From contig NZ_QPKJ02000004.1 in the NCBI RefSeq assembly GCF_003344625.1, positions 842,025-906,024 of the forward strand: a DNA stretch of 64,000 nucleotides. Reading direction: 5' to 3'. The notes under the pieces were generated by a model, which worked only from the letters and a program-made list of their open reading frames with translations, did not search any database and had not been told where the DNA came from. The position numbers were made by a program, and so were the translations under genes. Shown one piece after another: positions 3,007-27,206 of the stretch; position 1 is the stretch's first letter; each line of letters starts with the position of its first letter. The DNA is from Solirubrobacter deserti. GTDB lineage: Bacteria > Actinomycetota > Thermoleophilia > Solirubrobacterales > Solirubrobacteraceae.

Positions 3007-3849
3007 TCAGACGATCATCTGTGCGAGCAGTTTGTGCGCGGCGGGGGTGCCATCGCCGAGGATTACCAGCTTCTCCCCCGCCACACCGTTGGCGTGCCGG
3101 TAGCGCAACGCTGACCACAGCCCGGCGTAGGCGTCGAGGATGTCGTCGCGTCCGACGACCGTTCCGGTCCATGGTGCGGCGTCGGCCTGGGTGAGGGCGT
3201 CGTCGAACACGGCGGCGATGAGCTCGCGCCGCAGTGCCCGGCCTGCGCTGCGCTTCTTGCGCGGCAGACCGCTGGTTGCGCTCGGGTGACCGAGTTCGAG
3301 CGCCAGCGCTCGAAACGACAGCTCCGGATGGACTTCGACAAGCCAGCGCTGTCGGTCCGGCGCCGCGGTCAGCAGCGCGTCGGCCTCGGCGATCTTGGGC
3401 GCGATCGCCATCGCCTGACGGGTCATGATCGGATGCGCGCCGGCGGTTGGCTCCGCGGCACGCCGAGCGGTCACCACGTCGCGGGCCTGCTCGAAGCTGA
3501 GGCCGAGCAGCTCACGGTCGGGCGCGGGGAACACGCACGGCCAGCGCTGCCCGAGGGTCGCGCGCGCCGCGTGATCGCAGGTTCGTAACCCCGCTCGTCG
3601 TGGGAGACCCATGGGCACATCGACCGCCAGGATCACCGGCGCGGCCTTCGGGGTGCCGGCACCCGCGCCGGCGGCTTCGCATTCTTCGACGAGATGCCGA
3701 AGCCCGCCCTCGGCGTTCGTGTACAGGCGGAGTTCGGTGCGGGCGACGGGGGCGGACGGCGCCGGGTCGTGGCCGTCGGTGTAGGCGATGGCGGCGACCC
3801 AGCCGGCGCGGCAGCCGTCCACGCCGATCGCGGCCGCGCGTTCGCTCAT
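3007..3849 (-). CDS. DUF429 family protein (predicted RNase H-like fold), 280 aa
   Basis: The N-terminus GVDGCRAGWVAA (about residues 9-20) is the hallmark of DUF429 proteins, predicted RNase H-fold nucleases: an Asp after the first strand plus the CRxGW signature. A second conserved block, EVHPELSFRAL, lies near residue 172, and VDVPMGLP near residue 75 supplies another acidic strand end. Length is typical. The start codon overlaps the stop of the upstream minus-strand gene by 4 bp (ATGA, 3846-3849), so the two are translationally coupled. Substrate unknown; the family is patchily distributed. Confidence 0.8.
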   Translation of the reverse strand: MSERAAAIGVDGCRAGWVAAIAYTDGHDPAPSAPVARTELRLYTNAEGGLRHLVEECEAAGAGAGTPKAAPVILAVDVPMGLPRRAGLRTCDHAARATLGQRWPCVFPAPDRELLGLSFEQARDVVTARRAAEPTAGAHPIMTRQAMAIAPKIAEADALLTAAPDRQRWLVEVHPELSFRALALELGHPSATSGLPRKKRSAGRALRRELIAAVFDDALTQADAAPWTGTVVGRDDILDAYAGLWSALRYRHANGVAGEKLVILGDGTPAAHKLLAQMIV

Positions 3850-5745: not shown

Positions 5746-5829
5746 AAGAGCCGATTTACCCCTGCTCGCCGTCCAGGGAACTGGATACGGAAGGCGCTAC
5801 ATTCGAGCTACAGAGCCAAATCTGCAAAA

Positions 5830-5902
5830 GCCGGAGACGGGATTCGAACCCGTGACCTACCGCTTACAAGGCGGTTGCTCTGGCCAGCTGAGCTACTCCG
5901 GC
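5830..5902 (-). tRNA. tRNA-Thr(TGT)
   Basis: The minus strand folds into a full cloverleaf of 73 nt. Acceptor GCCGGAG pairs with CTCCGGC. The D arm is GCTC...GAGC. The anticodon stem is ACCGC/GCGGT with loop CTTGTAA (anticodon TGT, reading ACA). The T arm is ACGGG-TTCGAAT-CCCGT. CCA is not encoded. It separates the accessory block on its left from conserved genes on its right, and tRNA 3' ends are common integration sites. Confidence 0.97.
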
Positions 5903-19179: not shown

Positions 19180-19208
19180 TTGCACTTTCGCGCTTAACGC
19201 GCTACCTT
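19180..19208 (+). promoter_or_regulatory. Consensus-like sigma70-type promoter of the candidate RNA
   Basis: -35 TTGCAC (19180-19185), a 17-nt spacer, then -10 TACCTT (19203-19208), predicting transcription start near 19215. No credible protein-coding gene follows on the plus strand. Confidence 0.7.
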
Positions 19209-19213
19209 GCCGC

Positions 19214-19480
19214 CAGCCAACTTGCCGCTCCGGCGGTTGAGGAGGAGAGAGAGGGAGATCCTGGGGAGGATCGACCGAGTAAGCACGCAGCGCCCGGGCT
19301 CAGGGGAGCGAGACCCGGGCGCGACGTGTTTAAGGGCCCTGCACCTCTTGGAGGGTCGGATGATCGGGGTGGGGCGGAGGGATGTCCCGACTTCGAACTC
19401 ACCCCTTAAACACCTCCGGCCGCCTCAGGGGAGCGAGGCGGCCGGGAAGTGGTTCTGGAGGAGGGGTGCGATGAGAAGAT
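19214..19480 (+). ncRNA. Candidate structured non-coding RNA with twin AGGGGAGC loops
   Basis: The 382-nt gene-free interval 19161-19542 has a consensus promoter and dense perfect pairing. Hairpin A is GATCCT/AGGATC with a GGGG loop (19257-19272). Hairpin B has a 9-bp stem GCGCCCGGG/CCCGGGCGC (19290-19298 with 19314-19322), then CTC/GAG closing loop AGGGGAGC. An 11-bp helix GTGTTTAAGGG/CCCTTAAACAC joins 19326-19336 to 19403-19413 around a 66-nt inner region. Hairpin D has an 11-bp stem (19416-19426 with 19435-19445) closing the same AGGGGAGC loop. The 14-mer CTCAGGGGAGCGAG thus occurs twice, each time as CTC-loop-GAG. About a dozen GGA triplets occur, several in loops. No RNase P, tmRNA, SRP or 6S signature was recognised. 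The 3' end is a guess. Confidence 0.65.
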
Positions 19481-19542
19481 CGTCGCGAAGCTGATGCTCC
19501 CAACGCGATCTCAATCCTAGCTAAACATTCCCCCGATGTAAA

Positions 19543-27060: not shown

Positions 27061-27063
27061 TTG

Positions 27064-27200
27064 CCGCGCTAAGCCGAACCTCCGGTTGGTCGCCGGAGGA
27101 CGGGGGACCCACTTGCAGTTGGGGCGAGTCGCGTGCAAACGCGAGACGCAGGCTCTTTCAGCGTCAGCCCGTCAGCTAACCCCGTAGGCCGACGAAAGAG
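27064..27200 (+). promoter_or_regulatory. Cyclic-di-AMP riboswitch (ydaO-yuaA class)
   Basis: The leader has the order of conserved blocks known for this class: GCTAAGCCGAACCTCCGG with pairing CCGGAGG, then ACGGGGGACCCA, TTGGGGCGAGTC, a variable hairpin (GCGTGCAAACGC), then GTCAGCCCGTCAGCTAACCCCGTAGGC close to the ribosome-binding site. The downstream gene is an NlpC/P60 peptidoglycan hydrolase, a standard target of this riboswitch in actinobacteria, where c-di-AMP normally turns expression off. Boundaries approximate. Confidence 0.88.
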
Positions 27201-27206
27201 GAACAT

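Follow-up and report, generated by a model that had tools for sequence, protein, structure and literature searches.

The interval at positions 19180-19480 of the window, which is the 64,000-nt stretch of DNA analysed in this work from the 7.55-Mb genome of Solirubrobacter deserti, is flanked by a gene for a CNNM/CBS/CorC_HlyC protein on the plus strand and by a 3-hydroxyacyl-CoA dehydrogenase gene on the minus strand. The first-pass annotation, made from the sequence alone, proposed that this interval encodes a single plus-strand structured RNA with two capped hairpins. The question raised by this locus is whether it encodes one RNA or two genes, on which strand, and with what action. The predicted plus-strand RNA is referred to as M5 and the predicted minus-strand RNA as M3. 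The coordinates of their features are shown in Table 1. Two other RNA features were identified elsewhere in the window, which are a c-di-AMP riboswitch (RF00379, 70.8 bits) at 27062-27205 (+) and a tRNA at 5829-5902 (-).

Table 1. Features of the interval in the window (invariant sites refer to the alignment of five Solirubrobacter genomes).
Feature	Position	Strand	Basis
M5 promoter	19180..19208	+	-35 TTGCAC 19180-19185, 17-bp spacer, -10 TACCTT 19203-19208; boxes invariant
Predicted M5 RNA, ~120 nt	19215..19334	+	start inferred from -10 box, end from hp1 tail; folds, conservation, relatives
M5 P1 hairpin, CAAC...GTTG	19218..19239	+	CAAC/GTTG recurs in relatives, inner part varies (by eye)
M5 purine-rich linker AGGAGGAGAGAGAGGGA	19240..19256	+	within block of 56/58 invariant sites
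M5 P2 hairpin, GATCCT-GGGG-AGGATC	19257..19272	+	fold
hp1 hairpin, loop AGGGGAGC, tail GTGTTTAA, putative M5 terminator	19290..19334 (hairpin 19290-19322)	+	repeat search, fold
Hypervariable spacer between the two terminators	19337..19402		1/66 sites invariant; holds dispersed repeat of the genus
Predicted M3 RNA, ~83 nt	19404..19486	-	start and end inferred; model R2 match 19406-19528, 92 bits (this locus is among the 24 copies from which R2 was built); fold
hp2 hairpin with tail GTGTTTAAGGGG, putative M3 terminator	19404..19445 (hairpin 19416-19445)	-	loop GCUCCCCU on minus; TTT-run and pair counts
M3 seed CCCCUCCUCC, anti-Shine-Dalgarno type	19457..19466	-	19456-19466 invariant
M3 5' hairpin (P6)	19468..19486	-	fold; G-U tests
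Putative M3 promoter	19491..19525	-	TTTAG from 19525 and TTGAG from 19514, 11 bp apart; -10-like CATCAG 19496-19491

Conservation of the interval and the predicted plus-strand RNA

The promoter, the helices, and the duplicated loop cap that the first-pass annotation had described were all found where it had placed them. The 17-bp spacing of the promoter boxes is exactly as claimed. The identical CTC-AGGGGAGC-GAG cap closes two hairpins, hp1 and hp2, and both hairpins are present in all six Solirubrobacter genomes that were read (the window and L030-L034). The 14-nt string CTCAGGGGAGCGAG that includes this cap is found at two places only, 19299-19312 and 19424-19437, on stems that differ. The 11-bp inverted repeat (19326-19336/19403-19413) is also exact and is part of a 19-nt pair at 84%. 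The locus gave no match at gathering scores in Rfam 15, which leaves it without an Rfam class. Only eight Rfam 15 matches were found at the locus up to an E-value of 10, all far under the gathering scores (the best being mir-885, E 0.31), and the search of 14 relatives at E<=1 gave no match.

The interval is present with conserved blocks in five further Solirubrobacter genomes. Site conservation was calculated from the alignment of the window with four of these genomes, where G001 was excluded because of its insert. The -35 and -10 boxes are invariant at 6/6 sites each compared to 9/17 sites of the spacer between them, which supports a conserved promoter on the plus strand. The core at 19220-19277 is invariant at 56/58 sites and the stretch at 19456-19466 at 11/11 sites, while hp1 and hp2 are invariant at 28/33 and 24/30 sites. 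The ends of the neighbouring coding regions are invariant at only 56/91 and 36/58 sites. These findings are consistent with the proposal of an undescribed conserved feature whose hairpin loops are under selection. A 20-base pattern of the core matched 14 stretches in the genome collection, where seven are in unrelated groups and may be chance. The matches include Solirubrobacter soli, S. deserti, S. phytolaccae, S. taibaiensis, Candidatus S. pratensis, and an uncultured Solirubrobacter.

The spacer between hp1 and hp2 contains a dispersed repeat of about 45 nt around AGGTCGGATGATCGGGGTGGGGCGG (approximately 19354-19401), which has at least 29 further matches in the same genome (40 of 78 candidates scored) and is matched in all five other Solirubrobacter genomes. 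Complementary ends are common in this repeat, and four G tracts lie in its middle. In G001, the spacer between the two terminators is occupied by an insert (about 1.1 kb) that contains a 374-aa ORF (L032 1615-2739). This ORF has a CxxxCxxC motif and may encode a radical SAM protein. In L090 (around 3330-3440), the spacer is flanked by a long inverted repeat (TTAGAACCTGTTTCAG / CTGAAACAGGTTCTTAA).

Promoter-like boxes of M5 were also identified by eye in the relatives G014 and G020. The M5 core outside Solirubrobacter exhibits, by eye, the CAAC...GTTG hairpin, a linker that reads GAGGAGGAGAG or GAGAGGAGAG, often a hairpin with a GGGG loop (P2 is of the GTGGATC-GGGGTG-GGTCCAC type in other genera), and then a GC hairpin. 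Of the equivalents of hp1 in 22 g25 loci, eight are followed by a TTT run on the plus strand and none on the minus strand (within 12 nt), and six G-U pairs stand against one A-C pair. Model R1 of the 5' module matched 9/146 family genomes and is too narrow for the M5 of other genera; M5 was not recognised by the motif search in most g13 and g14 loci. The loci used for pairing the M5 hairpins were chosen for a visible M5 and therefore give no family-wide frequency of M5. M5 is probably a ~120-nt sRNA that has G-rich loops, Shine-Dalgarno-like linkers, and a promoter of the housekeeping type.

The predicted minus-strand RNA and the strand of hp2

A match for the CNNM protein was found in 138/146 family genomes. 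The DNA downstream of this gene was collected from 109 of these 138 genomes (the window, L030-L034, L086-L108, and L141-L220), a set without the genera g6, g19, and g21, whose best CNNM matches are weak. Model R2, which represents the 3' module (M3), was built from 24 copies and searched within the class. In 93/109 loci, M3 (R2, E<=1e-7) is located downstream of the CNNM gene, at no more than about 1.6 kb from it. The 16 loci without an R2 match are L086, L087, L088, L095, L097, L141, L144, L150, L161, L162, L213-L217, and L219, where L162 is a stub of 461 bases and L095, L144, and L161 have weak matches of 20 to 28 bits. At least 81 of the 399 genomes of the class have a match when at most eight candidates per genome are scored, and at least four of these 81 (G001, G116, G127, and G139) have a second one. 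Outside the family, two genomes among the candidates scored have partial weak matches (34 and 28 bits). The pattern GTGGRYCGGGGTGGGTCCRC with three mismatches scored the same as its reversed control and was excluded from counting. In G020, about 2.2 kb lie between the CNNM gene and the downstream element (L036 1504-1700); by eye, the M3-like RNA of this element on the minus strand would carry a UUCCCC-type loop on each of two hairpins, which is closer to the layout of 6C.

Read on the minus strand, M3 consists of a direct repeat, a -10-like box, a 5' hairpin, CCUCCUCCC, and a GC hairpin followed by U. The seed is CCCCUCCUCC in the window, while the family has the exact CCUCCUCCC in 85/98 copies and CCUCCUCC, a stretch complementary to Shine-Dalgarno sequences, in 92/98. 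Each M3 has one seed motif, which is located in a linker or, in g14, in a 4-bp hairpin. The mean unpaired probability of the seed is 0.78 over the 98 copies, and CCCC follows the seed in 54/98. The TTTAG/TTSAG repeat has the 11-bp spacing in 92/94 copies (four of the 98 copies, which lack TTTA, were dropped from the promoter counts). In 72/94 copies, an ATACT-like box lies 15-16 bp past the point where the second repeat begins. ATACT is complete in 33/94 copies and retains four of five letters in 30/94. The -10 of M3 in Solirubrobacter is weak, diverged, and about 3 bp further away. We take the layout of an 11-bp repeat upstream of the -10 to resemble that of PhoB-type promoters. The exact repeat-plus-box pattern was found in 10/146 family genomes, with none for the reversed control. 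A wider regulon under this repeat was rejected, as nine of the ten sites are M3 itself and the tenth is in G121. M3 is probably a minus-strand sRNA of about 85 nt in which an exposed stretch of the CCUCCUCCC type lies between the 5' hairpin and a terminator hairpin.

Read on the plus strand, the same region consists of a hairpin, GGGAGGAGG, a hairpin, AGTAT, CTSAA, and CTAAA. It could then be a leader with a Shine-Dalgarno sequence and a start codon for a tiny protein, given that ATG, GTG, or TTG comes after AGGAGGTG in many copies and that an (L)(N/K)xx-stop ending is common in the TAA frame. However, the distance from the Shine-Dalgarno-like string to TAA is not in frame (remainders of 0, 1, and 2 in 8, 7, and 9 of 24 copies), the start codon also shifts in some copies, and L001, L032, and L096 have a stop inside the TAA frame. 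The small ORF was rejected because its frame is not kept, and we regard such a leader as very improbable.

The strand could not be chosen from folding alone, since both strands of the interval fold better than all of their 200 dinucleotide shuffles. The plus strand folds somewhat better (z of -4.28 against -3.26) and the inverted repeat around the variable arm is mostly retained in the genus, both of which favour one long plus-strand RNA with two capped hairpins in which the 11-bp helix closes a variable arm. The tests on hp2 favour the minus strand instead. A TTT run is present within 10 nt after hp2 on the minus strand in 54/98 copies and on the plus strand in 1/98, while 44/98 copies have no such run on the minus strand. 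The contrast in T counts depends on the threshold, where at least five T in 10 nt gave 21 minus against 1 plus and at least four in 8 nt gave 51 minus against 23 plus, the plus tail being the conserved GTGCTTCT. The non-Watson-Crick pairs of hp2 comprise 70 A-C pairs on the plus strand (G-U on the minus strand), 11 G-U pairs on the plus strand, and 19 others. The folding index (alignment energy over mean single energy) is 0.40 for minus and 0.07 for plus in one alignment of the 98 copies, and 0.47 and 0.22 in the 54 copies outside g14 and g25. Within g14 and g25, it exhibits no strand difference (minus 0.74 and 0.78, plus 0.76 and 0.77). The G-U tests on P6 are neutral when strict (19 G-U against 17 A-C in 45 stems) and lean to plus when loose (56 against 24).

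The second capped hairpin thus behaves as the terminator of a minus-strand RNA. If so, the 11-bp helix that was thought to enclose a G-rich inner region is reread as the tails of two terminators, and the G-rich region as the hypervariable spacer between them.

The arrangement of the two modules also differs among loci. L098, L101, and L103 carry M3 inverted with respect to M5, while L094 (2812-3111) and L106 (1200-1456) carry two tandem copies of M3 with different 3' parts. Four g24 loci have M5 with no match for M3, and M3 is present with no recognised M5 in g13 and g14. In L092, L145, L146, L148, and L218, one hairpin doubles as hp1 and hp2 and would be a shared terminator. The shared terminator, the inverted M3, and the M5 of g24 make two genes likelier than one. 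The insert in G001 also separates the two halves. One plus-strand RNA with a closing helix was set aside on the strand tests and is considered unlikely. Of the original reading, the undescribed and conserved nature of the feature, the selection on its loops, and the plus-strand promoter stand, while the single plus-strand RNA does not.

Alternatively, the interval might contain no functional RNA but only what is left of promoters together with terminators that act in both directions where convergent genes end, which would fit the shared hairpin in those five loci and the location of M3 downstream of gene ends. We consider this equally unlikely, since the M3 seed and the M5 core are more invariant than the adjoining coding ends and the element of G020 is distant from the CNNM gene. 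The reading that we prefer, with a probability of about 0.6 from sequence comparison, is that the interval contains two convergent sRNA genes with facing terminators, where M3 would be an anti-Shine-Dalgarno sRNA and M5 a plus-strand sRNA that might mimic Shine-Dalgarno sites.

Proposed action of the two RNAs

No Hfq was found in the search of the S. deserti genome. Given the anti-Shine-Dalgarno type of the seed and that neither Hfq nor 6C was found in this genome, M3 is most likely an Hfq-free anti-Shine-Dalgarno sRNA. It would most likely pair with the Shine-Dalgarno sequences of mRNAs and block their translation without Hfq. Its transcription would probably start at the promoter with the 11-bp direct repeat upstream of the -10, a layout that suggests dependence on an activator. 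For M5, the likeliest role, which we propose only tentatively, would be mimicry of Shine-Dalgarno sites by which M3 or some other C-rich partner is held. The first-pass annotation had offered such mimicry as an alternative guess, and it is possible.

The hp1 loop of the plus-strand RNA (AGGGGAGC) and the hp2 loop of the minus-strand RNA (GCUCCCCU) are exact complements in Solirubrobacter. Selection on the duplicated loop may therefore reflect contact between M5 and M3. Alternatively, the duplication could have arisen from copying between neighbouring terminators. Among 56 sequences that were searched, those of Solirubrobacter have the AGGGGAGC cap in two copies each, G020 has a single copy, and the others have none. 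In L153, L158, and other g25 loci, the stems of hp1 and hp2 are nearly identical (GAAGCCGGCCC), so their arms could swap or could have been copied.

The energy of the duplex between M5 and the M3 seed was compared to dinucleotide-shuffled M5 in 36 pairs, where 11 loci with badly placed M5 hairpins had been excluded beforehand and loci without an M3 match dropped out. No excess was found in these pairs (mean z of -0.12). The z values are above 0 in 22/36 pairs and below -1 in 6/36, and those of the six Solirubrobacter pairs range from 0.04 to -1.52. L146 had appeared as a strong duplex (z of -5.28) and was rejected as an artefact because M5 and M3 share one hairpin there; the mean z without it is +0.02. 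A convergent pair of sRNA and anti-sRNA, in which M3 is an Hfq-free anti-Shine-Dalgarno sRNA, M5 a dedicated mimic, and the terminator loops AGGGGAGC and GCUCCCCU kiss in Solirubrobacter, is put forward only tentatively. If this were true, one locus would encode a brake on translation together with the release of that brake.

The first-pass annotation had also suggested protein titration of the CsrB type, in which a GGA-rich plus-strand RNA would titrate CsrA. The interval does have many GGA triplets, and csrA is present in two copies in the S. deserti genome (G000:C390:394984 and G000:C200:282001) and in one or more copies in 131/146 family genomes. As csrA is near universal, its correlation with M5 has little power. 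However, all four g24 genomes lack csrA and yet M5 is visible in them by eye, so M5 probably does not depend on CsrA. G014 likewise exhibits M5 without csrA, but its genome is only 78% complete. The P2 loop of other genera is GGGGUG, which has no GGA. The presence of csrA was thus borne out but titration itself was weakened, and we regard it as improbable.

No paper on the small RNAs of Solirubrobacter, Solirubrobacterales, or Thermoleophilia was found by title in the open-licence literature. The locus is common to many members of a little-studied family of soil bacteria, and M3 would carry a conserved C-rich tag that could block the translation of other messages. An M3 that is anchored by synteny and shares an alphaproteobacterial motif, in a genome where the search gave no Hfq, would suggest that anti-Shine-Dalgarno control evolved convergently. 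The compact locus is also suited to asking how targets are selected by so unspecific a seed and whether M3 is under the control of the G-rich RNA that faces it.

Comparison with known RNA systems

The 6C RNA of Actinobacteria (RF01066) has C-rich unpaired parts as M3 does. In Mycobacterium tuberculosis, 6C is described as pairing through C-rich loops without a chaperone, according to a review (PMC7308464). The search for RF01066 gave no match at the locus, in 14 relatives, or in the S. deserti genome, where the control for this search matched in only 1/14 genomes and below the cut-off, so that the negative in this genome is a weak one. M3 also differs from 6C in its C-rich part, where CCCC follows the seed in 54/98 copies.

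RNAs of the CsrB/RsmZ type are GGA-rich, as is the interval, and the S. deserti genome has csrA. They differ from M5 in that M5 is present in the four g24 genomes without csrA and that its P2 loop in other genera has no GGA.

Sponge RNAs hold an sRNA. The complementary loops of hp1 in M5 and hp2 in M3 in Solirubrobacter are similar to such a system, whereas, over the family, M5 and the M3 seed do not pair better than shuffled sequences.

CcsR RNAs use Hfq. The CcsR and 'cuckoo' RNAs of Alphaproteobacteria (SmelA075, SmelA099, and CcsR1-4) belong to another phylum than M3, whose genome gave no Hfq in our search. Both they and M3 are small RNAs with the CCUCCUCCC motif in common, which is described as an anti-Shine-Dalgarno loop motif of rhizobial sRNAs (PMC3927594). 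The motif is located there in the loops of several hairpins (PMC3927594), three or four in number, whereas M3 has it once per RNA in a linker or a short hairpin. The tandem M3 copies of L094 and L106 are similar to CcsR1-4, which are several copies in a row (PMC10253847). The CcsR RNAs adjoin a DUF1127 gene in Rhodobacter and are often linked to DUF1127 (PMC10253847), whereas the two proteins that flank the interval in the window, the only ones scanned, are CNNM and 3HCDH with no DUF1127. By analogy, M3 may work like the CcsR and 'cuckoo' RNAs without being one of them, as its structure and its neighbours differ.
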